From: Psychroserpens ponticola
Lineage (GTDB): Bacteria > Bacteroidota > Bacteroidia > Flavobacteriales > Flavobacteriaceae
Assembly: GCF_023556315.2 (NCBI RefSeq)
Contig: NZ_CP116221.1
Location: forward strand, 1,747,001 to 1,811,000
Direction: 5' to 3'
DNA length: 64,000 nucleotides
Position numbers and translations under genes: made by a program. This document shows, in pieces, positions 43,846 to 62,041 of this stretch. Numbering within the stretch: the first letter of the stretch is position 1; every line of letters starts with the position of its first letter. The notes beneath the pieces were generated by a model that searched no databases, was not told the DNA's origin, and saw only the letters and a list, made by a program, of their open reading frames with translations.

Positions 43846-44000
43846 AAACTAAAAACAAACTAATTATTTCCCGATACAATATTTAACTAACCCTATATTC
43901 ATTGGTATTGTAGCGTTTGGGCAACAAATAGGAAACAAAAAACACAAAATAAGAGAAGATTAGCAACAAACATTAATAATATTAATTACAAATATAGCAT

Positions 44001-44029: not shown

Positions 44030-44049
44030 CATACATAAAACACCAAGCA

Positions 44050-44691
44050 TTAATTAGCTGTTCCAGAGCCTAAATAAGTACTGTTTGATACTTGACTACC
44101 ATCGGCAGTGATAAATGCCATAAATAGCTCCACTGTATCTCCTGCGTAGGTTGTTGGGATAGCAACAATTTGACTTCCTACTGTTCTGTCTGCTCCATCA
44201 GTTAAAGAAATAGATTCTTTCTTTGATGGATTGTAAACCAATAACATTGCTTTATCGGTGGCGTTCGCATTACCTTCAGCAGAGTTATCATCCCAGTTAA
44301 AAGTTACTTCTCCCGCAGTTGTAAGATCAGTAGTAGGGTTTAAAGCAGTCGATAAACCTCCTCTACTTACTAAAGCGTTAGCATAATCTACATTGAAGTT
44401 TGGCTCAACTCCACCAATAGCATTGTTTAACACATACGACATTGCAGCATTGAATGCTGTTTTCTTCACTGCTAAAAACTTATATCCTTTCTGGATAAAA
44501 GGTTTAACAGCTTGAATAAATTCTAAAGTCACTGTAAACTTATTTCTTTGGTTTACCTGACCTACAGTTCTTGGATTCGCTACACTTGAAGGTTTAATTC
44601 TAATGTAGTCAATTCCTTTCCAGCTTCCACCGATAATGTTTCCAACCTTACCTGAAAGCCCTCCTAAAATACCTTGAGCAATTTTACCCAT
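44050..44691 (-). CDS. DUF6266 family protein
   Basis: 213 residues. MGKIAQGILGGLSGKVGNII followed by GGSWKGIDYIR is the N-terminal signature I associate with DUF6266, a multi-copy Bacteroidota family. RTVGQVNQRNKFTVTLEFIQ and the beta-rich C-terminal half (VTFNWDDNSAEGNA...AMLLVYNPSK...DTVELFMAFITADG) complete it. No signal peptide is present. The gene has its own terminator and 11-bp repeats upstream. Its distant relative at 42048 lies 1.3 kb away beyond the 104-bp array. The function of the family is unknown. Confidence 0.83.
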   Translation of the reverse strand: MGKIAQGILGGLSGKVGNIIGGSWKGIDYIRIKPSSVANPRTVGQVNQRNKFTVTLEFIQAVKPFIQKGYKFLAVKKTAFNAAMSYVLNNAIGGVEPNFNVDYANALVSRGGLSTALNPTTDLTTAGEVTFNWDDNSAEGNANATDKAMLLVYNPSKKESISLTDGADRTVGSQIVAIPTTYAGDTVELFMAFITADGSQVSNSTYLGSGTAN

Positions 44692-44725
44692 AACATAAAT
44701 GATTTAAATGAAACTTACTTTTCTT

Positions 44726-44758
44726 CGGACTTGGTACGGACTTAACACGAAGCTGTAC
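44726..44758. repeat. 11-bp direct repeats upstream of the DUF6266 gene
   Basis: CGGACTTGGTA and CGGACTTAACA are adjacent; a third block (CGAAGCTGTAC) keeps only the first bases. They begin 35 bases upstream of the ATG at 44691. The 11-base phase is the same as before the relative at 42788, but the sequence differs. Confidence 0.5.
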
Positions 44759-45098
44759 CTTCCGCTGAAATATATGGCAAGTTTTATGCTATTCTTTCAA
44801 TATGGGTTTTGTTGCTTTAGATTGCTTCTTTTTGCATCAGAAATAAAAAAACAATATTTTTTTTACAAAGAAAAAGAGAAAAAAGAAAGCAGTTCAATTG
44901 ATGGCGTGGACATACTGTCAAGTTTTTTGGGAAAAATATTGCTATACAAAATAGCTATAGCAGGATTTGCCAAAAGTTGGGTGCAAAATTTTTTTCAAAA
45001 CCCGTAGGGCTTGAACTTTATAGTATGATAGCGATGGATGAAGGAAGGCATCTAACTTTGCAATCTTTTTACTTAACTTTAAAATATAAAATAAACCT
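44759..45098. other. Intergenic DNA before the HNH-like gene
   Basis: About 340 bases. A + strand frame (44708-45007) has 99 codons, but its composition and overlap with the DUF6266 promoter argue against coding. A palindromic stretch at ~44938-44965 (GCTATA...TAGCTATAGC) is present. The promoter of the next gene must be here. Confidence 0.35.
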
Positions 45099-46139
45099 AT
45101 GAATTGTAAATTATGTTTAGTTAAACCTGCTGACAAAAAAGGTTCACATATAGTACCTGCATTTATTTTAAAAACTCTATTTGAAAGAAATAAAGAGTTT
45201 GTAGTATCTATAGGAAGTGAAGCTGTTGAAAATCATATCGGACGAGAACTTACACCTGAACAAATTGAGGATTATATGGGAAGAGAATTGACCGATGAGG
45301 AAATTGATCAAAACTATATACCATTTATAGAAGACAATATCTTTTGTTCTGATTGTGAAAAAAAGTTAGGACATTTAGAATCTATGTATGCAGATAAAAT
45401 CCATAAGCATTTAAGTAAAAAAGAGTGTGACAAGGATGAAATATTCACTTTTAATAATGATTTAGGACTTATATCTTTATTCTGGTATTCTGTTATATTA
45501 AGGTTTTCTTTAGCAACCCACAATAAATTCAAACTGAAAGATAAAGAACACAGAGCCATTAGAAACTATTTAAATAATAATCTTAAAGAAAATATACCTG
45601 AACTAAAAATTCACGTCGAAAAAAACATAAACTTAAACTGTCCTTATCCTCTTGGAATTTTTTTTAATTCAAATGCCATTAAAAGATTGTCAAGCAATTC
45701 TGTTTTAGAGATACCAAAATATAGAAATCCATATTTTTTATTGTTCAATGAATATATAATTATACTATATAATAAAGCCAGTCAAGTAAATGGAATGAAA
45801 CATAGTTTTTTTGATTTAGAAAAATCTTTTGATCCATTAAGAAATATAAATTATAACAATAATGAAGAATGTAATATTTGTATTATTAGAAATGACGTTT
45901 GGGAAGGAATTAAAACGAATATATTTGAATTATTTGCAAAATTTAAACATCAAGAATTTATTGATATGTTCAGATTTGTAGCAGAATATTCAAATCTTGC
46001 CTTTACTAAAGCTAATATCGTACATTTTGTAAATCGGATTTTATATGAAGACTCACATATTGCAGATAGATATGATAGGACGCGTGTTCTAACAATTTTA
46101 GCTGAAGAATTAAATCAATTACCAAAAATAAGCAGGTAA
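45099..46139 (+). CDS. Zinc-finger / HNH-like protein of unknown function
   Basis: 346 residues. The opening MNCKLCLVKPADKKGSHIVP (C3, C6, H17) and a second CSDC (C83, C86) with H92 form a CxxC ... SH.VP ... CxxC arrangement like the treble-clef fold of HNH endonucleases, although the usual second HNH Asn/His pair is not obvious. Residues 48-70 hold a short internal repeat (GRELTPEQIEDYM then GRELTDEEIDQ). The remaining ~250 residues are a helix- and Asn/Lys-rich domain I do not recognise. It stands alone, on the opposite strand to its neighbours, between repeat-rich and structured non-coding DNA, a setting typical of accessory or defence genes. Confidence 0.65.
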   Translation: MNCKLCLVKPADKKGSHIVPAFILKTLFERNKEFVVSIGSEAVENHIGRELTPEQIEDYMGRELTDEEIDQNYIPFIEDNIFCSDCEKKLGHLESMYADKIHKHLSKKECDKDEIFTFNNDLGLISLFWYSVILRFSLATHNKFKLKDKEHRAIRNYLNNNLKENIPELKIHVEKNINLNCPYPLGIFFNSNAIKRLSSNSVLEIPKYRNPYFLLFNEYIIILYNKASQVNGMKHSFFDLEKSFDPLRNINYNNNEECNICIIRNDVWEGIKTNIFELFAKFKHQEFIDMFRFVAEYSNLAFTKANIVHFVNRILYEDSHIADRYDRTRVLTILAEELNQLPKISR

Positions 46140-46176
46140 TCTAAAAGGCGCGAGCCGGCTGCGAGATGAGCAAGGG

Positions 46177-46228
46177 TGTTGTGGTAATAGCACGTTGCAT
46201 TTTTTTTGCATAAGTGCGTACCACAGCA
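46177..46228. other. Long bulged hairpin after the HNH-like gene
   Basis: TGTTGTGGTA pairs with TACCACAGCA (one G-U), then GCAC/GTGC and GCA/TGC pair inwards, separated by small unequal bulges, around a T-rich loop. The stem-bulge-stem plan resembles the folded attC sites of integrons in outline only; the GTTRRRY box is not found. Confidence 0.55.
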
Positions 46229-46236
46229 ACGGTTTA

Positions 46237-46258
46237 CCGCAAGGGTGGCGGATTTTTT
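46237..46258 (+). terminator. Possible terminator of the HNH-like gene
   Basis: CCGC and GCGG pair around AAGGGTG and are followed by ATTTTTTG on the + strand. The stem is short (4 bp), so this is a weak call. Confidence 0.35.
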
Positions 46259-46259
46259 G

Positions 46260-46660
46260 ATTCTTATTTCGTGTCAGAAGGATTTTTATTGGTAGTTCAA
46301 AATAGTAATGTTTAGGCAAGTGCAAGGATTGAAGGAAGCAATGGAAGGTTTGGGAATAGTTTTCATTTAAGGTTTGCCGTATTTGACACGAAGTAATGAA
46401 GTTGAGGAAATGCCGTATTTGAAGAAAAATAGGAATTGAATTTGTCTGAAGGCAAACCGTAATGTAGAAACTATTGTGTGGTGGATGGAATTGCTGACTG
46501 AATGAGTTGCTCTTGTGTACTGCTTGCGAAATAGGATAATCCGCAGTATTCAATGAAGTTCAATTTATCTTATGATGCGAATATTTTAATTCAATAATCA
46601 AATATTGTTGATTTAACTGCGGTTATCTTATTTGCAAACTTGGGACGTTCAAAAAATGTG
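46260..46660. other. Non-coding DNA between hairpin regions
   Basis: About 400 bases with no credible gene. A minus-strand frame at 46119-46553 has low-complexity, His- and Gln-rich content and runs into the neighbouring gene. The G+C content is higher than that of the neighbours from 46140 to ~46260, suggesting a different origin. Confidence 0.4.
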
Positions 46661-46661
46661 A

Positions 46662-46881
46662 CACCCGTAGACCCACATACTTTATTAAATCAAATGTTAT
46701 GACATTCTGTAATTTCAATTAATTCGCTAAACAATCTATTGAAGCGAAATTATATGTGGGTTTTGCCCGAAGCGACCCGCAGGCTCGCATAACATTAAGT
46801 AGCGGTTGCCCCTTAATAATTTCTAACAGCACAACGTGCTGACCTTATTGGGATTTTAAGGGGCAAAAGTAGCTACGGGTG
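46662..46881. ncRNA. Candidate structured RNA or folded-DNA element with a pseudoknot
   Basis: A closing helix CACCCGTAG (46662-46670) / CTACGGGTG (46873-46881) encloses three more perfect pairings. These are ACCCACATA (46671-46679) / TATGTGGGT (46753-46761); AATGTTATG (46693-46701) / CATAACATT (46788-46796); and TTGCCCCTTAA (46806-46816) / TTAAGGGGCAA (46856-46866). The last contains a small hairpin, CAGCAC/GTGCTG (46827-46841). The second and third cross each other, which is a pseudoknot, or they are two alternative folds. TTCGCT/AGCGAA (46723-46748) sits inside the second. No reading frame is conserved here. Strand and family are unknown. Confidence 0.5.
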
Positions 46882-46912
46882 AGGAAGGCGAGTAATGTGT
46901 GAAATAAAACAA

Positions 46913-46958
46913 ATAAATAGTACCAACGAGGACGTGTCGCCGCAGTGGTACTATTTAT
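46913..46958. other. Perfect 13-bp stem-loop
   Basis: ATAAATAGTACCA and TGGTACTATTTAT pair perfectly around a 20-base G+C-rich loop (46926-46945) that contains GACGTGTCGCCGC. It directly follows the candidate structured element. Confidence 0.6.
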
Positions 46959-46964
46959 GGTATA

Positions 46965-47049
46965 TGCAAGCCCTTTTAACTTGAGAGCTTTTTGATTGTG
47001 AGATTGTCGATTACTACGTAATGACGATATATAAACAAACTGGCTTGCA
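46965..47049. other. Stem-loop with inner hairpin
   Basis: TGCAAGCC (46965-46972) pairs with GGCTTGCA (47042-47049). Inside, TCG.ATTAC and GTAAT..CGA (47007-47027) form a second stem with a TAC loop. Confidence 0.5.
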
Positions 47050-47135
47050 GATATGTTTTATGGAACTAAATGGAACAACTGACGAACACCTTATTACCTG
47101 CTCACGGATTATACTATCATTACTGAATTGTGTAA

Positions 47136-47163
47136 TAAAAAAAGAGCCCTAAAAAGGACTCTC
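47136..47163 (-). terminator. Terminator of the metal-resistance operon
   Basis: AGAGCCCT and AGGACTCT pair (one G-U in minus-strand RNA) around an A-run, followed by seven U residues. It lies 13 bases beyond the stop at 47176. Confidence 0.85.
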
Positions 47164-47175
47164 AATTTGTAGATT

Positions 47176-47616
47176 CTAATGATCGTGATTTGTATCGTCA
47201 TCATCTTTCATTTCACCAGATTGATTCATCATCATTTCGTGGTCGTATTTACAACAACCTGGTAAACCATCATATGCTTCTTCATCACCTGCTACTTTTT
47301 CGGTATCATATCCTGAAGCTGCGATTGCTTTATGGATTGCCATTGCATCGGTTTTTGTATCATCAAAAGACACATCAATCTTCTTTTTATCGACATCCCA
47401 ATTAGCACTTGCTACACCTTCAACACCGTTAGCTGCTTTTTCGATAGTGTTTTTACACATTCCGCAATTTCCTCTTACACCAAAAGACAGGTCTGTCATT
47501 GCCATATCTTTTGACATTTCAGTAGTTGTGGTTTCTGTTTCTTTTTTGGTTTCGTTTTTACAACTTGTCAAACCTAATGCTGCTATTACAGCTACACTTA
47601 AAATTACTTTCTTCAT
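47176..47616 (-). CDS. Periplasmic lipoprotein with heavy-metal-associated (HMA) domain
   Basis: 146 residues. The lipoprotein signal ends in LTSC (cysteine ~19), then a Thr/Glu/Lys linker leads to an HMA domain (DLSFGVRGNCGMCKNTIEKA ... GYDTEKV) with the metal pair in CGMC. A C-terminal His/Asp/Met/Cys tail (CCKYDHEMMMNQ... NHDH) adds metal ligands. It is likely a copper or silver binding protein on the periplasmic face, handing metal to the adjacent adaptor and RND pump. It is the last gene of the island before the terminator. Confidence 0.82.
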   Translation of the reverse strand: MKKVILSVAVIAALGLTSCKNETKKETETTTTEMSKDMAMTDLSFGVRGNCGMCKNTIEKAANGVEGVASANWDVDKKKIDVSFDDTKTDAMAIHKAIAASGYDTEKVAGDEEAYDGLPGCCKYDHEMMMNQSGEMKDDDDTNHDH

Positions 47617-47648
47617 TGTTTAAAATTTAATTGTTATTACTTGATTTA

Positions 47649-49427
47649 TTATTCTATTACTTGTTTTACTTCACCACAGGTTAGCATTGCTTCGCCAAAA
47701 TATGGATTGATTACTTTTTCTTCTTTACTCAACCAATATGCACCATTGTTGTTATCTGCCATTGGACAAAATTCCACATAGACCTTTTCATTAACACCAA
47801 ACAATTGAACAGCATTGATTAGATGTGATGATAAATGTTTAAAATGGTCTCTTTGTGATTCTATATCGGACGTTTCAGAAATTGAAGTTGCAGAAGATTT
47901 TATTTCGCCTTCTAATGACATCCAATGGTTATGCGCCTTATTATCTGACAACAATTTCATATCTACTTTGTTCAATTTATTTAATAAAGTTGTTGCGTTT
48001 GCTGAAGTACTTTTTGAATCTTCTTTTACTAAAGCATCTTTTAAATTGATATACTCATTGAAAACAGCTTTTAACTGCTCTTGAAATTTCGCTGATACTT
48101 TCAAACGCTCATTCATATTAGTGTGGTCACTTTCTTTGTTAGATGCATTGTTATCCATACCTAAATGACCTTCGTGTCCAGTCATTACTTTACCACCATC
48201 TTTATTCATCATAGACTTTTTGCCTTGTAATTGTGCTGCTGCATCAACCGTAAATGTACCGTTAGTCACTATTTCATTTCCAACAAATAAACCTTCTACA
48301 ACTTCATATTCATTACCAATTTGATTGCCTAATTTAATTTCACGCATTTCAAAAATAGGTTGGTCTGGATTTGTTTTAAGGTACACCACAGAACGTTCAC
48401 CTGTCCATAACACAGAAGATGCAGGAATTGTTAATACTTCGTCATTTTTAGCTGTACTGCCTTCAATATTTGCGGTTACAAACATTCCTGGTTTAAATAC
48501 ATCGTCCTTATTGCTTAAAACAATACGTAAGGTTACAGTTCTTGTTTTCGTGTTTAAAACTGGGTCAATGAAATCAACTTTACCTTTAAACTCTTTATTA
48601 GGATAAGCATTGGTTGTTATCATCACTTCCTGTCCTTTTTTAAAGCGGTCAATCTGATTTTCATACACATCAAAATTTCCCCAAACCGTGTTTAGATTAG
48701 CAATTTTAAGTAAGGGTTGTCCTTGTTTAATGTAATCGCCTTGCTCTACCAATTTTTCTGTAACAGTACCCGAAAAGGTTGCATAAACAGGAAAGTTTTC
48801 TTTCACTTTTCCTGTTTCTTCAATCTGATTGATTTGATTTTCAGAAAGCTTCCATAATTTCAACTTATTACGGACTGCTTTGTATAAAGCAGGTTGTGAT
48901 TCTTTTAAAGATGCTGCTGTAATCAGTTCCTGTTGTGCTGCATAGAGTTCTGGCGAATAAATGGTTGCCAATAATTGACCTTTACGAACTTCTTCGCCTG
49001 TAAAACTCACATTCAAACGTTCAATTCTTCCAGCGAAATAACTTACCTGTACTGCATTGGCTTCTTCGTTTTCAGCAATTTTACCAGATAATTTGATAGT
49101 ATTGCCTTCAACATTGCCTTTACCAACAATAGATGTTTGAATATTAGCTAAAGCCATTGCGTTTTTAGTCAATTTGAATTGGTCTGCTAACAAGCCATCA
49201 CTTCCATTTTCCGCAGGAATTAAATCCATTCCACAAATAGGACAATCGCCTGGTTCTGGTTGCATAATTTGTGGATGCATAGAACACGTCCACAGTTGAT
49301 TGGTTTCTGAAATGGCATCGTGATTATGTTCTGTATCTTTTTTTGATGAACCACCAAAAAGCAACCAACCCAATAACACACCTACTACGAGTATGCCAAT
49401 ATATATGACTATTTTATTATTTTTCAT
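47649..49427 (-). CDS. cusB: RND efflux periplasmic adaptor (CusB type) with metal-binding and DUF3347 domains
   Basis: 592 residues. An N-terminal membrane anchor is followed by a small metal-binding domain, WTCSMHPQIMQP...CPICGMDLIP (46-71). Next comes the adaptor core: lipoyl/hairpin (RKGQLLATIYSPELYAAQQE, KLVEQGDYIKQGQPLLKIAN) and beta-barrel (GNFDVYENQIDRFKKGQEVM). The last ~150 residues are a DUF3347 domain (FNEYINLKDALVKED...VYVEFCPMADNN...ISKEEKVINPYFG type end), as in many Bacteroidota adaptors. It links the CusA-like pump at 53744 with TolC. It overlaps the DUF305 gene by 11 bases. Confidence 0.9.
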   Translation of the reverse strand: MKNNKIVIYIGILVVGVLLGWLLFGGSSKKDTEHNHDAISETNQLWTCSMHPQIMQPEPGDCPICGMDLIPAENGSDGLLADQFKLTKNAMALANIQTSIVGKGNVEGNTIKLSGKIAENEEANAVQVSYFAGRIERLNVSFTGEEVRKGQLLATIYSPELYAAQQELITAASLKESQPALYKAVRNKLKLWKLSENQINQIEETGKVKENFPVYATFSGTVTEKLVEQGDYIKQGQPLLKIANLNTVWGNFDVYENQIDRFKKGQEVMITTNAYPNKEFKGKVDFIDPVLNTKTRTVTLRIVLSNKDDVFKPGMFVTANIEGSTAKNDEVLTIPASSVLWTGERSVVYLKTNPDQPIFEMREIKLGNQIGNEYEVVEGLFVGNEIVTNGTFTVDAAAQLQGKKSMMNKDGGKVMTGHEGHLGMDNNASNKESDHTNMNERLKVSAKFQEQLKAVFNEYINLKDALVKEDSKSTSANATTLLNKLNKVDMKLLSDNKAHNHWMSLEGEIKSSATSISETSDIESQRDHFKHLSSHLINAVQLFGVNEKVYVEFCPMADNNNGAYWLSKEEKVINPYFGEAMLTCGEVKQVIE

Positions 49428-49899
49428 TCTCTAATCGTTTTATTATTGCTTTCATTTCTTCTATTTCTTTACGTTGTGCTTTTATAATGTCTTCTGCTAA
49501 TTTCTTAACTTCTGGGTCTTGAATATCTGCTCTTTCACTTGTTAAAATAGCGATAGAATGATGTGGTATCATTGCTTTCATCCAAAGGACATCACCAATA
49601 ATTGGTGCTTGTGTTCTTACCAACCCTAATGCACCTACAAACAGTATAAAACTACCTGCGAGTATGGCGATATTCTTCTTTTTATCATTATACATTTTTC
49701 GCATAAAAAACCACATTATTACTGCCATTGTTGAAATTCCTAAACACGTCATATAGAATCGTGTTAGACTAAACCATACGTGGTCTATGGAATAGGTGTT
49801 TAAATACATTGTGATGTACATTGCTACAAATGAGCAAGCCAACATTATAAAGAAGGTTTTGTAATTTCCTTTGTTTGAGTGTTCTTTTGAATTTTCCAT
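49417..49899 (-). CDS. DUF305 domain membrane protein
   Basis: 160 residues. Three membrane helices fill the first ~95. The DUF305 region has WMKAMIPHHSIAILTSERAD and ends in a charged helix (KAQRKEIEEMKAII). DUF305 proteins belong to the ferritin-like/copper-resistance setting (for example beside CopA and CusB). The HH in MIPHHS is the conserved pair. It overlaps the adaptor start by 11 bases and is 18 bases downstream of the copper ATPase. The exact function is unknown. Confidence 0.88.
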   Translation of the reverse strand: MENSKEHSNKGNYKTFFIMLACSFVAMYITMYLNTYSIDHVWFSLTRFYMTCLGISTMAVIMWFFMRKMYNDKKKNIAILAGSFILFVGALGLVRTQAPIIGDVLWMKAMIPHHSIAILTSERADIQDPEVKKLAEDIIKAQRKEIEEMKAIIKRLENEK

Positions 49900-49917
49900 A
49901 TTTTTTTGATTTTATAG

Positions 49918-52419
49918 TTAAACTTTAATTGTTCTTAATCGTAGTGCGTTTGCTATTACCGAAACCGAACTAAAACTCATTGCTAAAGCTGCTATCATTG
50001 GCGAGAGTAGTATTCCGAAGAATGGAAACAACACACCTGCTGCAATAGGCACACCAAAAGTGTTGTAGATAAGTGCAAAAAATAGGTTTTGCTTAATGTT
50101 CTTCATTACAGCATTACTTAAATTTTTTGCTTTTACAATACCGTGTAAATCGCCTTTTACTAACGTTATCATTGCACTTTCTATCGCTACATCTGTTCCT
50201 GTTCCCATTGCAATACCTACATCACTTTTTGCCAATGCTGGTGCATCATTAATTCCATCACCTGCCATAGCAACTACTTTTCCATTTTTTTGTAGTTTCT
50301 CTACTTCTTTGAGTTTGTCTTCTGGTAGCATACTGGCTTTAAAATCTGCCAAATTTAGTTCTGATGCTACTGCTTGTGCTGTATCGTGATTATCACCTGT
50401 AAGCATTATCACATCAATGCCTTTATCTTGAAGTGCTTTAATCGCTTTAGCACTTGTTTCTTTTATCTTATCGCCTATAACTACATATCCAACTACGGTT
50501 TCATCTATTGACAAATAAGAAACTGTTTTGCCTTGTTTTTGGTAAGATTTAGCTTCGTCTTTCATTTTAGAGGTAATATCTGCTTTGGCATATTCCATCA
50601 TTTTAGGATTACCTAATGCTACATTTTTTCCATCAATTTTAGCTTCAACACCTTTTCCTGTAACAGCACTAAAATCTTCGGACTTTAAAATTTCTGCGTT
50701 GTGTTCTTTGCCATATTTAACTGTCGCTTCTGCTAAAGGATGTTCGCTATTTGTATTTAATGACACGATGTATTGTAACACTTCTTTTTCGCTTAAAACA
50801 GCATTAAAAGCACCAACGGTTTCAACTGTTGGTTTTCCTTCGGTAATTGTGCCTGTCTTGTCAACGATAAGCGTATTTACCTTATCCATTTTTTCAAGAG
50901 CTTCGGCATTTTTAATCAATACACCATTTTGAGCACCTTTACCCACACCAACCATCACAGACATTGGTGTTGCTAAACCTAAAGCGCAAGGACACGCAAT
51001 GATTAGTACTGCAATTGCATTCACAAACGCATACACATAAACTGGTTCTGGTCCCCAAATAGACCATACAATAAATGTGATAATAGAAATAAGAACTACA
51101 ACTGGTACAAAATAACCTGAAACTTTATCTGCTAAATTTTGAATAGGTGCACGACTTCTACTGGCATCATTAACCATATGAATGATTTGTGATAAAAGCG
51201 TGTCACTTCCTACTTTTTCAGCTTTCATTAAAAAGGTTTTATTCCCATTAATTGTTCCGCTACTTACTTTATCTTCTTGAGATTTGTTTACAGGAATAGG
51301 TTCACCTGTAATCATAGATTCGTCAATGGTTGTTTCGCCTTCAGTTATCACACCATCTACAGGAATTTTATCTCCTGGTTTCACTTTTAGAATATCGTTG
51401 AGTTCTATCTCGTCAATACTGACTTCAACTTCTTCACCATCTACTAATTTTATGGCTTTATTCGGTGCTAACTTTAGTAACTCTTTTACTGCCGAATTGG
51501 TTTTACTATGTGCGCGAGCTTCTAATAATTGACCTAAAAGTACTAATGTTAGAATTACCGTTGCTGCTTCAAAATAGACGTGAACTGCACCTGATTCAGT
51601 TTTAAATTGTTCAGGAAATACATCTGGAAACAACATCCCAAATACACTAAATAACCAAGCCACACCTGCACCGATTCCAATGAGTGTAAACATATTGAGA
51701 TTCCAAGTTTTTATGCTTCTATAAGCACGCTCAAAGAACATCCACGTAGCGTAAAAGACAACTGGAATGGATAAAGCAAACTGAATCCAGTTCCAATATT
51801 TCTGTTCCATTATATCGTATAATGGATTATTATTAAGCATTTCGCTCATAGCAATTAAGAAAATAGGTAATGTGAATACAGATGCTATCCAAAATTTCTT
51901 TAATAGCTTCTTATACGTTTTTTCTTCTGCTGAACTATCTACTTCCATTGGCACTAAATCCATCCCACAAATAGGACACGAACCTGCTTCGTCTTTGACA
52001 ATTTTTGGATGCATAGGGCACGTCCATTGTTCTGCTGAAGCTGTGGATAGATTTTGTTCTTCCACCAAATCCATTCCGCAAACAGGACAATCGCCTGGTT
52101 CATCATAAGTTTTATCGTCTTCGCAATGCATAGGACAATAAAATGTGCCTGTGCCTTTTCCTTTTGGTTGCTCTTTCTTTTTATCATTTGAATGTTGATG
52201 TTGTTCACCTTGTTTATGAATACTGTATCTATCACCATCCTTTTTTAAGGCTTCTTGAAACTTTTCTATAGGAATATGCGATTCCATTTCGATGGTAGCT
52301 TCTGCCTTATCTAAATCGACTGTTGCTTTTAAAACACCTTCTATTTTAGAGAGCGTTTCTTCAACGTGACTGCGACAACCGTTGCAAGTCATTCCGTGTA
52401 TATGATATGTGTGTTTCAT
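49918..52419 (-). CDS. copA: Copper-translocating P1B-type ATPase
   Basis: 833 residues. The N-terminus has an HMA domain (GMTCNGC, C12/C15), then two small metal-binding modules of the CPMH...CPVCGMDL and CPMHPKI...CPICGMDLVP type (90-120 and 132-158). Eight membrane helices carry CPC at ~475 (IACPCALGLATP). The phosphorylated aspartate is in DKTGTITEG (~520), with SEHPLAEA and GDGINDAPAL for the nucleotide and hinge regions. It pumps Cu(I) (and Ag(I)) from the cytosol to the periplasm, where the CusA/CusB/TolC set can remove it. It lies upstream of DUF305. Confidence 0.95.
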   Translation of the reverse strand: MKHTYHIHGMTCNGCRSHVEETLSKIEGVLKATVDLDKAEATIEMESHIPIEKFQEALKKDGDRYSIHKQGEQHQHSNDKKKEQPKGKGTGTFYCPMHCEDDKTYDEPGDCPVCGMDLVEEQNLSTASAEQWTCPMHPKIVKDEAGSCPICGMDLVPMEVDSSAEEKTYKKLLKKFWIASVFTLPIFLIAMSEMLNNNPLYDIMEQKYWNWIQFALSIPVVFYATWMFFERAYRSIKTWNLNMFTLIGIGAGVAWLFSVFGMLFPDVFPEQFKTESGAVHVYFEAATVILTLVLLGQLLEARAHSKTNSAVKELLKLAPNKAIKLVDGEEVEVSIDEIELNDILKVKPGDKIPVDGVITEGETTIDESMITGEPIPVNKSQEDKVSSGTINGNKTFLMKAEKVGSDTLLSQIIHMVNDASRSRAPIQNLADKVSGYFVPVVVLISIITFIVWSIWGPEPVYVYAFVNAIAVLIIACPCALGLATPMSVMVGVGKGAQNGVLIKNAEALEKMDKVNTLIVDKTGTITEGKPTVETVGAFNAVLSEKEVLQYIVSLNTNSEHPLAEATVKYGKEHNAEILKSEDFSAVTGKGVEAKIDGKNVALGNPKMMEYAKADITSKMKDEAKSYQKQGKTVSYLSIDETVVGYVVIGDKIKETSAKAIKALQDKGIDVIMLTGDNHDTAQAVASELNLADFKASMLPEDKLKEVEKLQKNGKVVAMAGDGINDAPALAKSDVGIAMGTGTDVAIESAMITLVKGDLHGIVKAKNLSNAVMKNIKQNLFFALIYNTFGVPIAAGVLFPFFGILLSPMIAALAMSFSSVSVIANALRLRTIKV

Positions 52420-52508
52420 CTGTTGTTATTTATTTTTTAATGGTCAGATGTAATTCGCTTATAAAAATCTTGAATAGTTTTATAATAATAATACATCCGC
52501 TCATTTCA

Positions 52509-53747
52509 TTATTGCTGTGTTAAATAATTAATGATTGTACTTTGCACATAGTAGGTCTTCACAGATTCTATTTGGTTCATTTGAAACTTTAGCTGCAACT
52601 CTTGAATATCCAAAACATCATTAAAATCTATCGTTCCTGTTTCATAGCTTTTGATTAAAATACCTTCTGCATCTTTAGCTTGCTTTAGGTTTTTGGTTTG
52701 GGTAGCATAACTTATTCTTGCAGAAATGCCTTCGTTAATCGCTTTGTCTAAAAGAGTTTCCAAAGTATTTAAGCGTTCCTGTTTTTGAGCAGTAATTTCT
52801 TGCTGTTGCAACTCATTCTGCTTGGTTTGCGATTTATATTTCTTATTGAAAATTGGGATAGATACCGAAACCATTGGCATCACAATGTCCTTTCCGTTAT
52901 CACTAAAATCCATATTTGGCCTTTCAGCAACATTGATATAATCTAATCCAAAACCAATCATTGGACTGCTTTCTTTTTGATTCAATAATTCTGATTGTTC
53001 TATGGATTGATACAGTTTATCATATTTTAGCAATTCAGGATGTAATGCTAAATTTTCAGAAGTAATATCAAAGTCTTCAGAAGGTATCATTAAACTATCT
53101 ACTACATTCACGGTAACATCATTATCTCTATTCAATAGATTATTGAAGTTAGTTTGTTCTGCTAAAAATTGTTGTTGCAATACATCTTTTAGTTGTTGCA
53201 TTTCGTTTTGGCGCATTTGTAAACGCAATACATCTACTGCGGATGCTTTACCAACCTCAACAGATGTTAGTGCTAATGTTTCGTAAGTTTCTAATAGTTT
53301 GATGTTTTCAGTTAAAACCTCTTGCTTTGCTTTGTTGGCGTATAGATTATAATAGGATTGTGATACCGAAGCCATTAGTTTTCGCTTTGCGATAACAATG
53401 TCCTCGTATTTAGCATCTGCCAATGAACTTACATAGTTTTCTCTCGATGTAATGGTTCCGAACCACGGTAACATTTGTTTAGCAGATACTTTAAAGCGTT
53501 GTGCACCTGTTCTGGTTTCCGGTTCACTTACAAAGTAACCAACACCAAATTCGGTATTAGGAATGGTATTGACTTCGTTTACTTTTTCAGAAGCTCTTTT
53601 GTATTGTAACTCAAACTTTTGAATTTCTGGATTGTTTGTTAATGCTTCATCTATAAGTGTTTCTAATTGTTGTGCATTTCCAATGAGAACAAAGAATAAC
53701 GAACAAAGAATAAAGACTGATTTTATGTGTGATTTTATTTGTTTCAT
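52509..53747 (-). CDS. TolC-family outer-membrane efflux protein
   Basis: 412 residues. The signal peptide ends near GNAQQ, followed by two copies of the long-helix TolC repeat, with the family pattern (ALTNNPEIQKFELQYKRASE, KQMLPWFGTI, NLLNRDNDVTVN, PELLKYDKLYQS). The extra periplasmic helices are coiled coils. It forms the outer-membrane channel for the adjacent CusA-like pump, whose stop overlaps this start by 4 bases. Its length is typical of metal-efflux TolC proteins. Confidence 0.9.
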   Translation of the reverse strand: MKQIKSHIKSVFILCSLFFVLIGNAQQLETLIDEALTNNPEIQKFELQYKRASEKVNEVNTIPNTEFGVGYFVSEPETRTGAQRFKVSAKQMLPWFGTITSRENYVSSLADAKYEDIVIAKRKLMASVSQSYYNLYANKAKQEVLTENIKLLETYETLALTSVEVGKASAVDVLRLQMRQNEMQQLKDVLQQQFLAEQTNFNNLLNRDNDVTVNVVDSLMIPSEDFDITSENLALHPELLKYDKLYQSIEQSELLNQKESSPMIGFGLDYINVAERPNMDFSDNGKDIVMPMVSVSIPIFNKKYKSQTKQNELQQQEITAQKQERLNTLETLLDKAINEGISARISYATQTKNLKQAKDAEGILIKSYETGTIDFNDVLDIQELQLKFQMNQIESVKTYYVQSTIINYLTQQ

Positions 53748-56700
53748 TTTACAGTTCTTTTAAGTTGAAATTCGGCTTTCCAGCTATATAATACTGGAAC
53801 AACAAATAAGGTTATTAAGGCTATAAGCATTCCACCAAAACTTGGTATTGCCATAGGTATCATTATATCACTTCCTCGACCTGTAGAGGTTAATACTGGT
53901 AATAATGCTAAAATGGTTGTAGCTGTAGTCATTAAACAGGGTCTGATACGTTTTTCTCCTGCTTCCACTATGGATGCTCTAATTTCCTTTTTATTCTCTG
54001 GTGTGTTTCTATCAAATGTTTGCGTTAAATAGGTTGCCATTACTACACCATCATCTGTTGCAATACCGAAGAGCGCAATAAATCCAACCCAAACTGCTAC
54101 ACTTAAATTAATAGGATGCATCTGGAATAAGTCTCGCATATTTTCGCCAAAGAAATTGAAGTTTAAAAACCAATCTTGGCCATAGAGCCAAATCATTATA
54201 AAACCACCTGCAAACGCTACTGCGATACCTGTGAATACCATTAAGGACGTACCAACCGAACGGAACTGGAAATACAGAATTAAGAAAATGATTGCCAATG
54301 CTAACGGTACAACAACCGATAAGGTTTTTTCTGCTCGTAACTGATTTTCATACGTTCCTGTGAATGCATAGTTGATTCCTTTTGGAACTATCAATTCACC
54401 AGAATCTATCTTTTCTTGGATTAGTGCTTGTGCATTTTCTACGACATTGACTTCTGCAAAACCATCCATTTTATCAAACAATACATAACCTACTAAAAAA
54501 GTATCTTCACTTTTAATGACTTGTGGACCTTGTTCGTATCTTATAGTTGCCAATTCGCTTAATGGCACAGGACTACCCTTTTCAACTGGTACATAAATCT
54601 GTTGTAAGTCTGTTGGGTTTGCACGTAATTCTCTTGGGTATCGTACTCGAACACCATATCGCTCTCGACCTTCTACCGTTTGGGTTAAGACCATACCACC
54701 AACTGCTACTTTTAATACATCTTGAACATCTTGTATCGAAATGCCATAACGTGCAATTTTCTCTCTATCAATATCAATTAACAAATAGGGTTTACCAACA
54801 ATACGGTCTGCAAAAACAGCTTCTTTTTTAACACCTTCAGCTTCCTTGATGATGTTTTCTAATTGCACACCAAACGCTTCAATCTGCTTTAAGTCTTGAC
54901 CTTTTACTTTAATTCCCATAGGTGCTCGCATTCCTGTTTGAAGCATCACTAATCGGGTTTCAATAGGTTGTAGTTTTGGTGCTGAAGTAACACCTGGTAA
55001 CTTTGTAACTCTTACGATTTCATTCCAAATATCGTCTGGTGACTGTATTTCTGGTCGCCAATTACGATAGTACTCGCCATCATCATCTTCAATTAATTGA
55101 GACCTTTTTATAGTGCTAAAAATGACGTTTTCGGAATTATTAGGATTAGAAACCAAACGACCATCCTTCAATTCAAAGAAGCCATCATCATTTACTTTGT
55201 AGCGTTGGCGTACTCCGTTTTCATTCAGCATATATTCTGGTTTATACTGAATCATATTCTCGTACATTGATAGTGGTGCTGGGTCTAAAGCTGATTCTGT
55301 TCTTCCTGCCTTACCAACTACGGTTTCAATCTCTGGAATACTGGCTACTGCCATATCTAATTGCTGTAAAACACGTTTGTTTTCTTCTACGCCAGAATGT
55401 GGCATCGAGGTTGGCATTAGTAGAAATGAGCCTTCATTTAATGAGGGCATAAACTCTTTGCCTGTATTTTTCATAATGAAAAATCCTGCGATGACAATAG
55501 CAGTTGGAACAGATAAAAACAATAGTTTGTTATCTAAACACCACCTTAAAATACGTGTGTAGTATTTTATAAATAATGAGAAAACACCTAATAAACCAAA
55601 GCAAATAACACTCACAAAAATGAGATTCCAAAAAATGCTTTTATCAACGCCTAATGGTCTCCAGTATTCGGCTAACAAGAACACAATAGCTGATACGGAA
55701 ATAATAATATTGATAAGATTAGCTTGTTTCTCTGTTATCTTATTTTGAAGATTGAGAAGTGCTGTAATTCCAAACGCTATCAAAATCAATCCTAACCAAT
55801 ACCCATAAATTATGGCAGCGATTCCTAATGCCATTAAGACACCATTTAAAACATATTTAAAAGTGTTTTTAATGTTTTTCTTTCTGAATAAAAATGCAGC
55901 AAACGGTGGAATTAAAAATAACGCCACGATTATAGAAGCTGTTAGTGCAAAAGTCTTTGTGAAGGCTAATGGTCTGAATAGTTTTCCTTCCGCTCCAATC
56001 ATTGTAAATACAGGAATGAAACTGATAATAGTTGTCATAACTGCGGTCACGATTGCGCCAGATACTTCAGCTGTTGCGTTATAAACTACCGTATTAGTGG
56101 ATTGTGTTCCATCATCTTCATCTAAATGCCGAATGATATTTTCTGATAGTATGACACCAACATCGACCATTGTACCGATAGCAATAGCAATACCTGATAA
56201 AGCGACAATGTTGGCATCTACACCAAAGAGTTTCATTGCAATAAATACCATTAAAACTGCAACAGGTAATAGTCCAGAAATTAGTACGGAAGCTCGAAGA
56301 TTAAACACCATAATAATTATTACTAAAATGGTAATCAATATTTCAAGAGTTAAGGCTTCGTTAAGTGTGCCTAATGTTTCTTGTATCAATTCTGTTCTAT
56401 CGTAAAAAGGCACTATGGTTACTTGTGAGGTTCTACCATCCGCTAATACTTTTGAAGGTAATCCTGCACTTAATTCATTAATTTTTTCCTTTACGTTATT
56501 AATGACTTCCATTGGGTTTGCGCCATAACGAGCCACCACAACAGCACCAACAACCTCTGCACCTTCTTTATCTAATAATCCACGTCTTGTTGCAGGACCT
56601 AATGAAACTTTACCAATATCCTTTATCCTAATTGAAGTATAATCTTCTGAAGTGACTACTGCATTTTCGATGTCTGAAATGGATTTCACATAACCCAAAC

Positions 56701-57451
56701 CACGAACTAAATATTCGGCTTGGTTAATTTCCAAAGTCTGTGCACCAATGTCTTTATTGCTTTCCTTAACTGCTTTTACAACGTGATGTAATCCAATATT
56801 ATACTGACGCATTAGTTCTGGATTCACGTCCACTTGATATTCTTGAACATAGCCACCAATAGAAGCAACCTCTGAAACACCACTTGCAGAGGACAGCGCA
56901 TACTTTACATAGTAATCCTGAATACTGCGTAACTCTTGCAAATCCCAACCACCAGTTACATTTCCGTTTTCGTCACGACCTTCAAGCGTGTACCAAAATA
57001 TTTGTCCTAATCCTGTAGCATCTGGACCCAATGCAGGATTAACACCTTCGGGTAATAAACCACTTGGTAAGGAATTAAGTTTTTCGAGAATACGACTTCT
57101 ACTCCAGTAAAATTCTATGTCTTCTTCAAAAATGATATAGATACTTGAAAAGCCGAACATAGAAGAACTACGAATGGTTTTTACTCCAGGAATCCCTAAC
57201 AAGGATGTGGTTAATGGATATGTAATTTGGTCTTCTATATCTTGTGGTGAGCGACCATCCCATTTTGTAAAAACGATTTGTTGGTTTTCTCCTATATCTG
57301 GTATGGCATCTACAGCAACTGGATTACTTGGTAAGAAACCTGTATCCCAATTAAAAGGTGCATTAACCGTTCCCCATCCTACAAAAAGGACGAGTAGCAG
57401 AACTGCAACGAGTTTATTTTCTATTAAAAATTTGATGCTTTTATTGAGCAT
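53744..57451 (-). CDS. cusA: CusA/CzcA-family heavy-metal RND transporter, Cu/Ag type, with extra membrane segment
   Basis: 1235 residues against ~1040 for CusA. The usual 12 helices and two large periplasmic loops are present (DIGENQQIVFTKWDGRSPQD at the start; GIAIAIGTMVDVGVILSENI; the loop at RLVMLQTGMRAPMGIKVKG with methionines in place of CusA's metal path). Between ~524 and ~630 an insertion of ~100 residues adds about four helices before the second half. The stop overlaps the TolC gene by 4 bases. It takes Cu(I)/Ag(I) from the periplasm to the outside with CusB and TolC. The pair of genes is repeated, in divergent form, in the CzcA-TolC gene at the right edge. Confidence 0.92.
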   Translation of the reverse strand: MLNKSIKFLIENKLVAVLLLVLFVGWGTVNAPFNWDTGFLPSNPVAVDAIPDIGENQQIVFTKWDGRSPQDIEDQITYPLTTSLLGIPGVKTIRSSSMFGFSSIYIIFEEDIEFYWSRSRILEKLNSLPSGLLPEGVNPALGPDATGLGQIFWYTLEGRDENGNVTGGWDLQELRSIQDYYVKYALSSASGVSEVASIGGYVQEYQVDVNPELMRQYNIGLHHVVKAVKESNKDIGAQTLEINQAEYLVRGLGYVKSISDIENAVVTSEDYTSIRIKDIGKVSLGPATRRGLLDKEGAEVVGAVVVARYGANPMEVINNVKEKINELSAGLPSKVLADGRTSQVTIVPFYDRTELIQETLGTLNEALTLEILITILVIIIMVFNLRASVLISGLLPVAVLMVFIAMKLFGVDANIVALSGIAIAIGTMVDVGVILSENIIRHLDEDDGTQSTNTVVYNATAEVSGAIVTAVMTTIISFIPVFTMIGAEGKLFRPLAFTKTFALTASIIVALFLIPPFAAFLFRKKNIKNTFKYVLNGVLMALGIAAIIYGYWLGLILIAFGITALLNLQNKITEKQANLINIIISVSAIVFLLAEYWRPLGVDKSIFWNLIFVSVICFGLLGVFSLFIKYYTRILRWCLDNKLLFLSVPTAIVIAGFFIMKNTGKEFMPSLNEGSFLLMPTSMPHSGVEENKRVLQQLDMAVASIPEIETVVGKAGRTESALDPAPLSMYENMIQYKPEYMLNENGVRQRYKVNDDGFFELKDGRLVSNPNNSENVIFSTIKRSQLIEDDDGEYYRNWRPEIQSPDDIWNEIVRVTKLPGVTSAPKLQPIETRLVMLQTGMRAPMGIKVKGQDLKQIEAFGVQLENIIKEAEGVKKEAVFADRIVGKPYLLIDIDREKIARYGISIQDVQDVLKVAVGGMVLTQTVEGRERYGVRVRYPRELRANPTDLQQIYVPVEKGSPVPLSELATIRYEQGPQVIKSEDTFLVGYVLFDKMDGFAEVNVVENAQALIQEKIDSGELIVPKGINYAFTGTYENQLRAEKTLSVVVPLALAIIFLILYFQFRSVGTSLMVFTGIAVAFAGGFIMIWLYGQDWFLNFNFFGENMRDLFQMHPINLSVAVWVGFIALFGIATDDGVVMATYLTQTFDRNTPENKKEIRASIVEAGEKRIRPCLMTTATTILALLPVLTSTGRGSDIMIPMAIPSFGGMLIALITLFVVPVLYSWKAEFQLKRTVK

Positions 57452-57560
57452 TGGCTTTGATTATTAAACAGTTAGACAATGGTGTAAGGAAAACACCGAA
57501 TACAGCGAATTATCCTTACGAAATTGCAGTCATAGGATAAAAAATTCTATTGTTTAAAAA

Positions 57561-57974
57561 TCAAATTAAGTATGTTTCGTCAATCTTGTAGAGTTGCCTT
57601 ATGACGAGTGGCGGTTTATATTCTTCGTAAGTAGAAACGTTATTTTCTAAACCTTCAAAAAGGTTAATGTAAGTGTAAACAAATGAAGCTATAAATAGGT
57701 GTTGCTCAAACGTGATTTTATCAACTTGCAATTGCAATTCGTCTTGACCTTCAATTGCTAATTGTTCATCATCACAACAATTTTTCTTGGTAATAGAACA
57801 TCCTTCGGTTGAAGGCTTTTCCATTTCCATTCCGCACCCTTTGGCTTTTTGAAAGATAGCAGTTTCTACTAACGTATCTCCACAATAATGCATATTCAAA
57901 GTAAATGACATTGTAGAGAATAACACTACAAAAGCCATTGTTAAAGACATTATTTTATGGAAAAATTGCTTCAT
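57561..57974 (-). CDS. HYC_CC_PP family protein
   Basis: 137 residues from the ATG at 57974 (MKQFFHKIMSLTMAFVV, a signal peptide). The three family landmarks are visible: MHYCGDTL, KNCCDDE and YKPPLV. A middle cysteine (GCGMEME) may add a ligand. Family knowledge: this small exported protein occurs beside cation-efflux genes in Bacteroidota, and the role is unknown. It lies between the CusA-like and the second P-type ATPase genes. Confidence 0.88.
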   Translation of the reverse strand: MKQFFHKIMSLTMAFVVLFSTMSFTLNMHYCGDTLVETAIFQKAKGCGMEMEKPSTEGCSITKKNCCDDEQLAIEGQDELQLQVDKITFEQHLFIASFVYTYINLFEGLENNVSTYEEYKPPLVIRQLYKIDETYLI

Positions 57975-58045
57975 ATTGATTGCGAAGTTACGAAATTTTA
58001 ACAACTATTGATTCTGTTTAACAGAAGTTTAATTGACTAATCTGC

Positions 58046-59998
58046 TTAATCCCAAGTCATTTTCTGCAAGCGAACCGCATTTAATATTGCTAAAAGTGCA
58101 ACACCAACATCTGCAAAAACTGCTTCCCACATTGTTGCCAAACCTCCTGCTCCTAAAATCAATACAATTACTTTGACACCAAATGCCAAAATAATATTTT
58201 GCCAAACAATTTTTCTTGTGGAACGACTTATTTTAATCGCCTTTACCACTTTTGAAGGTTGGTCTGTTTGAATAATAACATCTGCTGTTTCAATAGCTAC
58301 ATCACTTCCTAAACCACCCATTGCGATCCCTACATCACTTGCTGCTAAAACTGGTGCGTCATTAATACCATCACCTATAAAAGCTATTTTGTTTGCTGGA
58401 TTTTTCTTTAAAATTTCAACTTCGTTTAATTTATCTTCTGGTAATAATCCACCTTTAGCATTTTTAATATTCAATTCTTTTGCGACTTGTTGGGTAATGG
58501 AATCTTTATCTCCAGAAAGCATCATTATATTATTAATACCAACTTTATGTAAGGCTGTAATTGTTTCTTTGGCATCTTCTTTTAATTCGTCTGCTATTAC
58601 CACATAACCAGCGAACTTATTATCTATTGCTACTAAAACTATAGATTCTACAATAGATTCCGTTTCCGTTGGAACCTCAATATTATTGGCAGTCATTAAG
58701 GCTTTATTTCCTACTAAAACTGTTTTACCATTTACAATGCCTCTTAAACCTTTTCCTGCAATTTCAGAAACGTCTTGTGCTTCAAAATCTTCTCCTTCTG
58801 CTTTATACTCTAAAATTGCTTTAGCAATTGGATGCGTGGATTGCTCTTCCATCGCCATTAAATATTGCATAAATTCGGTTTCTTTCCAATCAATTGCTTT
58901 TACTTCTTTGATTTTGAAAACTCCTTTGGTAACCGTTCCTGTCTTATCCATTACCAAGGTGTTTATTTTGGTCATTGCATCTAAAAACGAAGCTCCTTTA
59001 AATAAAATTCCGTTTTTTGAAGCTGCTCCCAATCCTCCGAAATAACCCAATGGAATAGAAATTACCAAAGCACAAGGACAAGAAATCACAAGAAAAATTA
59101 AAGCTCTGTATAACCAATCTCTAAAGACATAATCATCTACAAAAAAGTATGGTAGAAACGTAACACCTATTGCTAAAAACACAACTATTGGCGTGTAGAT
59201 ACGTGCAAATTTTCTAATGAATAATTCTGTTTTAGATTTTCGAGCTGTGGCGTTCTGTACCATATCCAAAATTCTTGCAATGGAACTGTCTTTAAATTCT
59301 TTGGTGGTTTCTATTTCAATTACACCGTCCAAATTAATGCTGCCTGCAAAAACTTTTTCACCTTTTGCAATCGTATCAGGTTTACTTTCTCCTGTTAATG
59401 CAGCTGTGTTGAATGAACCTTTTTTGGAAAGTAGAATACCATCTAAAGGAATTTTTTCTCCCACACGCACTTGCACTTTTTCGCCAATTTCAACCGTTTC
59501 TGGACTCACAGACACATAATCATTGTTGCGATATACCAGAGCTTCATTTGGTCTTACATCAAGTAAGGCTTTTATATTTCCTTTTGCTCTGTTAACAGCT
59601 GCATTTTGAAATAGTTCCCCAACTGCGTAAAACAACATTACTGCAACACCTTCAGGATATTCGCCAATAATAAACGCACCAATAGTAGCAATGGACATTA
59701 AAAAGAACTCTGTAAACACATCTCCTTTTTTAATACTTTCCCATCCTTCTTTTACTACAGGAAGACCTACTGGCAAATATGCTATACCATACCATACAAT
59801 ACGCAACCAATCTTTAAAAAATGCAACATCAAAATAATCTAAAGCAATGCCAATAATTAGCATTGTAAAACTTATGATTGCTGGAATATAGGCTTTAATT
59901 TGACTTGAATTGCCACTATGATCGTGACCATCATCGTGACTATGTTGTTCTTCTGAATCTGGTTTTAAATCTCTTAAATTGACTTTCTTTTTTTTCAT
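58046..59998 (-). CDS. Zn/Cd/Co-type heavy-metal P1B ATPase
   Basis: 650 residues, without an HMA domain; instead the N-terminus is His-rich (HSHDDGHDHSGNS, ~19-31). Eight membrane helices carry CPC in ISCPCALVISIP (~306). DKTGTVTKG (~351) is phosphorylated, and STHPIAKA and GDGINDAPVL complete the core. The S-C-P-C-A pattern and the histidines favour divalent metals over copper. It overlaps the DUF3703 gene by 4 bases. Together with the Fur-family gene upstream this suggests zinc or cadmium control. Confidence 0.93.
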   Translation of the reverse strand: MKKKKVNLRDLKPDSEEQHSHDDGHDHSGNSSQIKAYIPAIISFTMLIIGIALDYFDVAFFKDWLRIVWYGIAYLPVGLPVVKEGWESIKKGDVFTEFFLMSIATIGAFIIGEYPEGVAVMLFYAVGELFQNAAVNRAKGNIKALLDVRPNEALVYRNNDYVSVSPETVEIGEKVQVRVGEKIPLDGILLSKKGSFNTAALTGESKPDTIAKGEKVFAGSINLDGVIEIETTKEFKDSSIARILDMVQNATARKSKTELFIRKFARIYTPIVVFLAIGVTFLPYFFVDDYVFRDWLYRALIFLVISCPCALVISIPLGYFGGLGAASKNGILFKGASFLDAMTKINTLVMDKTGTVTKGVFKIKEVKAIDWKETEFMQYLMAMEEQSTHPIAKAILEYKAEGEDFEAQDVSEIAGKGLRGIVNGKTVLVGNKALMTANNIEVPTETESIVESIVLVAIDNKFAGYVVIADELKEDAKETITALHKVGINNIMMLSGDKDSITQQVAKELNIKNAKGGLLPEDKLNEVEILKKNPANKIAFIGDGINDAPVLAASDVGIAMGGLGSDVAIETADVIIQTDQPSKVVKAIKISRSTRKIVWQNIILAFGVKVIVLILGAGGLATMWEAVFADVGVALLAILNAVRLQKMTWD

Positions 59999-60357
59999 TT
60001 TGAATTGAATAAATTTTTAATATCATTAGGAATAGGCATACGTTTTAATGGTGGTACATTTGCACCTCCTGTATTGCCGATTGGTATGTGATTAATGAAC
60101 GATTTCCAACCTCCAACAATTAATCTTATTATTTGTCCAAATACTTCTTTGGTGTTTTTTTGCATTAAGCCAAACTTTAGCATTAACCAATGTGAATAGG
60201 TATGCTCAATAGGATAAGATTGACCTATAATGTGACTTCTTTCTAAATGATACCACGCATTAGTAAAATCACTGTTAGCCAAAGCAACTTCATATAAACC
60301 AAGTTCTTTATTATAAGCATCTTTTAAATACTTTGGTATTTTATAATTCAGTTTCAT
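59995..60357 (-). CDS. DUF3703 family protein
   Basis: 120 residues from the ATG at 60357 (MKLNYKIPKYL); the longer frame to 60435 overlaps the regulator gene. Family landmarks: AWYHLERSHIIGQSYP, HWLMLKFGLM and IPIGNTGGANVPPLKRMPIP. It is a small protein of unknown function that repeatedly accompanies cation-efflux genes. It overlaps the ATPase start by 4 bases. Confidence 0.87.
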   Translation of the reverse strand: MKLNYKIPKYLKDAYNKELGLYEVALANSDFTNAWYHLERSHIIGQSYPIEHTYSHWLMLKFGLMQKNTKEVFGQIIRLIVGGWKSFINHIPIGNTGGANVPPLKRMPIPNDIKNLFNSK

Positions 60358-60412
60358 TATTATCTCATTTGATTGTAAAAATATAATACCAATACGTGCA
60401 ATGGAAGTGCAA

Positions 60413-60829
60413 TTATTGTCCACTACATTTATCACAAATACCTTTTACCACCAAGTTTACGTTTTCTGACACAAAACCATCTGGTACTTTTATTAAAGGG
60501 ATTTTATGTTCTGTTAAGCAAATAGTTTCATTACAGTTATTGCAATGAAAATGCAAATGCAAATCAGTTTCAATTTCACAATTACATCCGTTTTCACACA
60601 GAGCATATTTAGTAATTCCTGTACCATCGTCTATTTGATGCACTATCGCTTTTTCCTCAAATGTTTTAATAGTTCTGTACAATGTGGTTCTATCTGCTTT
60701 TTCAAAAGCATTTTCTATATCACTTAATGTTACTGCTATTTGTTTATTTGCAAGAAACTTATAAATCAATAAACGCATTGCCGTAACCCGTATATCTTTT
60801 GACTCTAAAAATTGTTCTATTGTTTGCAT
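60413..60829 (-). CDS. Fur-family transcriptional regulator
   Basis: 138 residues. A winged helix-turn-helix (DRTTLYRTIKTFEEKAIVHQ) is followed by a metal-binding dimerisation domain with HLHFHCNNC and a C-terminal CDKC. These are the His/Cys sites of the Fur/Zur/PerR group. The opening (EQFLESKDIRVTAMRLLIYK) is typical. It lies between the second adaptor gene and the DUF3703/ATPase genes and probably controls them according to Zn or another divalent metal. The exact metal cannot be told. Confidence 0.92.
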   Translation of the reverse strand: MQTIEQFLESKDIRVTAMRLLIYKFLANKQIAVTLSDIENAFEKADRTTLYRTIKTFEEKAIVHQIDDGTGITKYALCENGCNCEIETDLHLHFHCNNCNETICLTEHKIPLIKVPDGFVSENVNLVVKGICDKCSGQ

Positions 60830-60831
60830 AA

Positions 60832-62037: not shown

Positions 62038-62041
62038 TTTC

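Follow-up and report, generated by a model that had tools for sequence, protein, structure and literature searches.

What is the stretch at positions 46662-46881 of the window, the 64,000 nucleotides of the Psychroserpens ponticola chromosome analysed here? A first-pass annotation had singled it out as a compact element of about 220 non-coding bases, with four long perfect pairings, a 6-bp hairpin and a pseudoknot, for which chance was a poor explanation. The complementarities are all present: 46662-46670 with 46873-46881 (9 bp), 46671-46679 with 46753-46761 (9 bp), 46693-46701 with 46788-46796 (9 bp), 46806-46816 with 46856-46866 (11 bp) and the small hairpin 46827-46832/46836-46841 (6 bp). 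On both strands, moreover, none of 200 dinucleotide shuffles folds as well as the 220-base stretch (z -5.13 on the plus and -4.96 on the minus strand), which bears out the judgement on chance.

The compactness did not hold: 46662-46881 is the middle part of a larger element of about 970 bases. Among DNA matches in relatives, found at E 0.001 or better in 10 genomes of 146 and in some cases short, flanking sequence is conserved well beyond the stretch in both directions. An 18-base end pattern occurred in at least 119 stretches in 84,980 species genomes, and 80 loci among the matches listed were taken up. Title and context marked three of them (L057, L076 and L078) as chance matches, and these were dropped; among the 77 loci kept from the matches listed, both element ends were located in 59. 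Pattern loci, boundary comparison and blastn blocks place the whole conserved non-coding element at 46132..47101 on the plus strand, running from GCAGGTAA to TTACCTGC. It is 970 bases long in the window copy and 499-1088 bases in the 59 relatives, among the matches listed, with both ends located; blastn blocks of full-length relatives against the window start at 46129-46132 and stop at 47101-47129. The two ends can pair over 9 bp, with GCAGGTAAT (46132..46140, plus strand) as the 5' arm and ATTACCTGC (47093..47101, plus strand) as the 3' arm. The inner eight of these pairs were set by the search pattern and so have no evidential value; across 60 elements, the ninth is T/A 35 times, A/T 24 times and T/T once. 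One copy (L046), otherwise nearly identical, carries about 116 additional bases within the element, at window position 46520. A protein-coding function was rejected: taking the longest open stretch of each element, the median is 93 codons and the maximum 208, and comparisons short of a protein alignment established no fixed place for it.

Support for the proposed fold was assessed helix by helix in A4, an alignment of 15 homologues of the 46662-46881 region. Near-identical copies were taken out ahead of the alignments; L039 and L084, with a large insert or a missing helix, were omitted (leaving 17 of 19 sequences in A1 and 15 of 17 in A4), as were the over-long rows L060, L073, L079 and L108 from A4. 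Two of the long helices, both read on the plus strand, are well supported. The helix 46671-46679/46753-46761 is paired in 94.0% of cells, with two-sided change at 4 of 9 pairs, and the 11-bp helix 46806-46816/46856-46866 in 91.5%, with two-sided change at 4 of 11, its three inner pairs being absent in 12 of the 15 sequences. The outer helix 46662-46670/46873-46881 (plus strand) is partly supported: 92.6% of its cells are paired, only one of its nine pairs shows two-sided change, and in all 15 sequences its 3' arm in part pairs instead with 46799-46803. As a nine-pair helix it was therefore rejected, being mostly unvaried and in competition with 46799-46803. The crossing helix 46693-46701/46788-46796 (plus strand) is paired in just 63.7% of cells and is not conserved, so the pseudoknot is unsupported, and the suggestion that the crossing helices are switch-like alternatives falls with it. 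For the small hairpin, homologues were compared by eye only.

A helix absent from the first-pass annotation, 46799-46803 (GTAGC) with 46872-46876 (GCTAC) on the plus strand, is paired in 100% of A4 cells, with two-sided change at two of its five pairs. When it replaces the crossing and outer helices, the structure's score on the 15 homologues, in an independent MAFFT alignment, is 0.225 (shuffled mean 0.077); 94.3% of cells are paired, and 10 of 25 pairs show two-sided change. For the originally proposed structure the score is 0.172 (shuffled mean 0.083). We also built a model, R1, of a 148-base block (46765-46912) from 17 sequences; it gave 81 matches in 80 of 84 sources, and 69 distinct rows formed alignment A5. 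Here 97.5% of cells are paired and 20 of 21 pairs show two-sided change; the score is 0.418, compared with a mean of 0.168 after shuffling and no more than 0.118 for the slid structure. In A5 the 11-bp helix is 95.5% paired, with two-sided change at all eight modelled pairs, and the helix 46799/46872 is 99.7% paired, with two-sided change at five of five. Since the rows of A5 were aligned to the model structure, and most of the variation in the last small helix is wobble, we base the claim of covariation on the two central helices. When 39 three-prime halves are folded to a consensus, many compensated pairs appear and further covarying helices reach the 3' end; conserved stretches also occur outside the predicted helices. 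On these alignments, the predicted folded shape of the element is kept by evolution beyond what chance would produce. The original observation is thus partly confirmed and its interpretation partly supported: a failure of the pairs to covary in homologues had been named as evidence against a structured element, and most of the structure does covary.

No Rfam 15 family matched the window at the gathering threshold, and of the nine Rfam matches listed to E 10 over 43800-47300 none falls within 46132-47101, which together with the covariation agrees with the earlier view of an undescribed structured element. No tRNA or tmRNA was found in the window, and the open-licence literature searched yielded no description of the element. 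Plasmid or phage sequence was rejected as an identity, there being no match to the element at E 1e-5 in either the plasmid or the phage collection; viral contigs held no exact match of the 18-base pattern. When 72 of the 80 pattern loci were given to the R1 search, 68 matched (the exceptions were L059, L071, L095 and L096). Among the matches listed, loci that match R1 span, going by record titles, 22 Bacteroidota genus names, and two more (L072 and L100) come from a metagenome bin whose title assigns it to Rickettsiales. Searches of even samples, with filters that lose weak matches, found R1 in 10 of 296 genomes at the level of the order and in 3 of 395 at that of the phylum; the latter figure indicates that the element is not widespread. 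There is one copy per locus in 79 of 80 matched sources. The sole two-copy source (L190) has its copies 10.6 kb apart on one contig.

The element stands in a fixed order and orientation: a divergent DUF6266 gene, its leader, exchangeable cargo, then the element. In the window, the DUF6266 gene (PF19781, E 3.3e-91) lies at 44050..44691 on the minus strand. Among 31 loci with at least 4 kb of sequence upstream of the element, the upstream gene is a divergent DUF6266 gene of type A in 21 and a paralogue (type B), in the same orientation, in six; four have neither. The leader ends in a promoter-like box, TAACTTTG (45053..45060, plus strand), which points at the cargo and the element. In 35 of 40 loci the motif of this box, TAnnTTTG, which we take to be the Bacteroidota -7 box, lies no more than 75 nt from the leader motif; shuffles would give 2.8. 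The exchangeable slot holds a 346-aa ORF at 45099..46139 on the plus strand, with its stop codon inside the first bases of the element and with no match in Pfam, PADLOC or NCBIfam. One relative (L040) is 97% identical to the window over 43865-45074 and 94% over 46131-47129, and the cargo between is unrelated. Likewise, the sequence immediately left of GCAGGTAA is variable in 59 relatives, and cargo differs across the 40 listed loci, where it includes PIN_12, SRAP, HTH_17 and DUF6943 proteins. Several cargo genes in these loci run on the minus strand, so that the transcript proposed below would be antisense to some of them. DUF6943, DUF6617 and DUF6266 recur in the islands, and nothing on the three was found in the open-licence literature. 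AlphaFold models have a mean pLDDT of 68.9 for the DUF6266 protein and 84.4 for the product of a paralogue at 42048-42788; a known fold for DUF6266 was rejected on a Foldseek run with that paralogue only, whose best hit in PDB and BFVD had E 0.030.

The same place can be taken by something else. Fourteen high-scoring DUF6266 loci (L175-L188) lack an R1 match, and in nine of them another large non-coding element, with both ends found, occupies the same position. It is uninterrupted in six and has cargo inside in three (L176, L179 and L185); uninterrupted copies are about 560-890 bases long, starting near TTAAAAAAATAGGTT and finishing near CTGGGTTTTGTTTTGTGGGGA (for example in L187, L184 and L186).

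The carrier is an integrative island. A left end repeat, TTATTTCCCGATACAA (43864..43879, plus strand), equals TTACTTCCCGATACAA, at the 3' end of mnmE (L201:13471, about window coordinate 77471), in 15 of 16 bases. Because the left end repeats the mnmE 3' end, the island spans about 33.6 kb, from 43864 to about 77471 past the window, ending at mnmE and leaving that gene intact. Its tyrosine integrase (L201:11787-12881) has arm, SAM-like and catalytic domains (PF17293, PF13102 and PF00589) and is followed by mnmE. In seven of eight genomes that have type A DUF6266 together with the element, a tyrosine integrase lies 12-33 kb away on the element's side and points back; on the contig of the eighth (G248) no integrase is listed. 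Among three type B genomes, the integrase is about 3 kb away in G066, with none near in the other two. Matching end repeats were found in six of eight genomes compared, at mnmE, tRNA-Phe or tRNA-Ser. The exact repeats are 15, 19 and 16 bases at mnmE in G051, G139 and G075, 15 at tRNA-Phe in G060 and 13 at tRNA-Ser in G359, the last being the search minimum and accepted as the tRNA-Ser 3' end beside an integrase; none was found in G092 or G066. We consider this anatomy of place, ends and neighbours secure.

To the right of the element, ORFs at 47176..63937 on the minus strand encode metal-efflux-like cargo, named by eye, and in this respect the annotation was right that the element goes with a metal island. 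The island also encodes an Argonaute, pAgo (L201:2956-5049, about window 66956-69049; PADLOC E 1.8e-237). Its right end further holds HTH_17, DUF6617, BT4734-like_N and PriCT_2-DUF3987 genes. DUF3987 is missing from 11 of 28 genomes, including the element carriers G060 and G359, and the element was accordingly rejected as an origin for the DUF3987 primase-helicase. A search for PF03432, the one relaxase family sought, found none in this genome and two among 15 genomes, outside the island. Tandem repeats of about 105 bases lie just left of the island's left end (43100-43861). A weaker copy of the end repeat at 33311-33326 has three mismatches (1.26 such matches are expected by chance), with restriction genes and the DUF6266 paralogue at 42048-42788 to its right; it possibly marks a second island in tandem.

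What, then, does the element do? The best explanation is that it belongs to an undescribed family of structured non-coding elements, large ones of about 0.5-1.1 kb, which are a constant feature of one end of Bacteroidota islands moved by a tyrosine integrase. That the element keeps its place and orientation, that its fold is under strong selection and that an alternative element can stand in its position all speak for a function in the life of the island itself. Our tentative preference, which we rate a little short of evenly balanced, is for a transcribed RNA that serves the island's mobility or upkeep. Transcription would proceed rightwards and may start at the promoter-like box that closes the DUF6266 leader; the folded RNA would act in mobility or upkeep much as the small RNA of SGI1 does. 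On the plus strand, no terminator-like site was found in 47101-47300.

Alternatively, and with a lower but still appreciable probability, the element may function in the form of folded single-stranded DNA, such as a transfer origin or an initiation site used while the island is single-stranded. We compared G-U with A-C combinations in helices picked without G-U, at a 0.8 Watson-Crick cut-off, and used RNase P (27 of 30 loci) and tmRNA (30 of 30) from relatives as RNA controls. The controls gave G-U:A-C counts of 54:6 and 47:12, respectively, whereas the full alignment of the element gave 29:31, with no excess of G-U. G-U accounts for 1.3% of cells in the full alignment and 1.8% in the three-prime half, versus 4.5% in RNase P and tmRNA, so wobble pairs are some 2.5-3.5 times rarer than in the two controls. 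These values favour single-stranded DNA, as do the stronger z of the window copy of the element on the minus strand (-7.28, against -4.90 on the plus strand) and the replication-type module (PriCT_2-DUF3987, BT4734-like_N) at the island's other end. However, well-supported pairs of the three-prime half gave 24:12, and the central hairpin gave 16:3 in the model-based alignment, 10 of the 16 at one pair. The lack of a PF03432 relaxase in this genome, the loss of DUF3987 from carriers such as G060 and G359 and the lack of a plasmid match also tell against a DNA site, and we know of no kilobase-sized covarying DNA folds.

Strand energies were no more one-sided. Of 42 full elements, 30 were tested, and in all 30 raw energy was better on the plus strand, by a mean margin equal to that of RNase P. 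This preference vanishes on shuffling, which indicates that it is largely base composition, and whole-structure strand energy was rejected as proof of RNA; among 14 three-prime halves, z was lower on the plus strand in seven. Picking helices without G-U keeps the choice itself from favouring either strand; another such count of G-U against A-C in the three-prime half came to 31:29, a point for single-stranded DNA. Wobble counts and strand energies together point both ways, and on them the choice between RNA and single-stranded DNA is undecided.

A third reading, which we judge improbable, makes the element a large integron-like recombination site at which a tyrosine recombinase exchanges the adjoining cargo. 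An integron attC is a folded site beside exchangeable cargo in a system with a tyrosine recombinase, and the near-identical flanks of L040 around unrelated cargo, the variable sequence left of GCAGGTAA and the promoter-like box ahead of the cargo fit such a scheme. But attC sites are far smaller than this element, one copy per locus in 79 of 80 sources means that there are no cassette arrays, and homologous recombination in two conserved flanks accounts for the exchange equally well. Least probable of all, and hardly to be expected, is a ribozyme that processes itself and is of the kind of circularly permuted group II RNAs. These are of similar size, and a divergent protein gene whose function is unknown, AcpG, can lie near them (PMC8637638), but no group II model appears among the Rfam matches to E 10 over 43800-47300.

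Returning to a folded nucleic acid that serves the island, we regard as rather unlikely the stronger proposition that this is a new class, of kilobase size, with at least two versions that have no detected similarity, placed alike by DUF6266 and required for the movement of undescribed Bacteroidota islands, maybe as single-stranded DNA. If it were true as single-stranded DNA, these would be among the largest covarying DNA folds. Few known non-coding elements of comparable size covary so extensively, and for most of those the role has yet to be settled. Because the carrier is defined in its ends, integrase, protein family and cargo, the role of this one is testable by deletion of a single module. 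The work also provides an anatomy for marine Bacteroidota islands that bear metal-efflux-like, Argonaute and restriction genes.

Among known large RNAs, the GOLLD, ROOL and OLE families are in Rfam. They are described as large, ornate non-coding RNAs of unknown role, GOLLD and ROOL being found in many phage genomes (excerpts of PMC12286853 and PMC7567579); the present element, unlike them, sits in integrative islands and matches neither Rfam nor the phage collection. Circularly permuted group II RNAs form a structured class of about 900 nt, reported from Thermus, Firmicutes and Proteobacteria, and often adjoin a protein gene without known function, AcpG, in many cases divergent (PMC8637638, in part). 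The element resembles them in size and in its neighbouring divergent protein gene, but it has no group II match to E 10, and the likeness of AcpG to DUF6266 is one of description only. It differs from attC in being much larger and in forming no arrays. Its carrier, as a tyrosine-recombinase island, is like the strand-biased circularizing integrative elements, which have the core genes intA, tfp, intB and srap and which the sections available of PMC10214605 report from Gammaproteobacteria only. The closest precedent, as far as the portions available of PMC9299015 and PMC8409611 describe it, is SGI1, which sits at the trmE/mnmE 3' end and whose own small RNA is needed for transfer. SGI1 is found in Gammaproteobacteria, and its sgm-sRNA, unlike the present element, is small and derived from an mRNA 3' end (PMC9299015, same portion); we treat SGI1 as an island unrelated to the present one that occupies the same kind of site.
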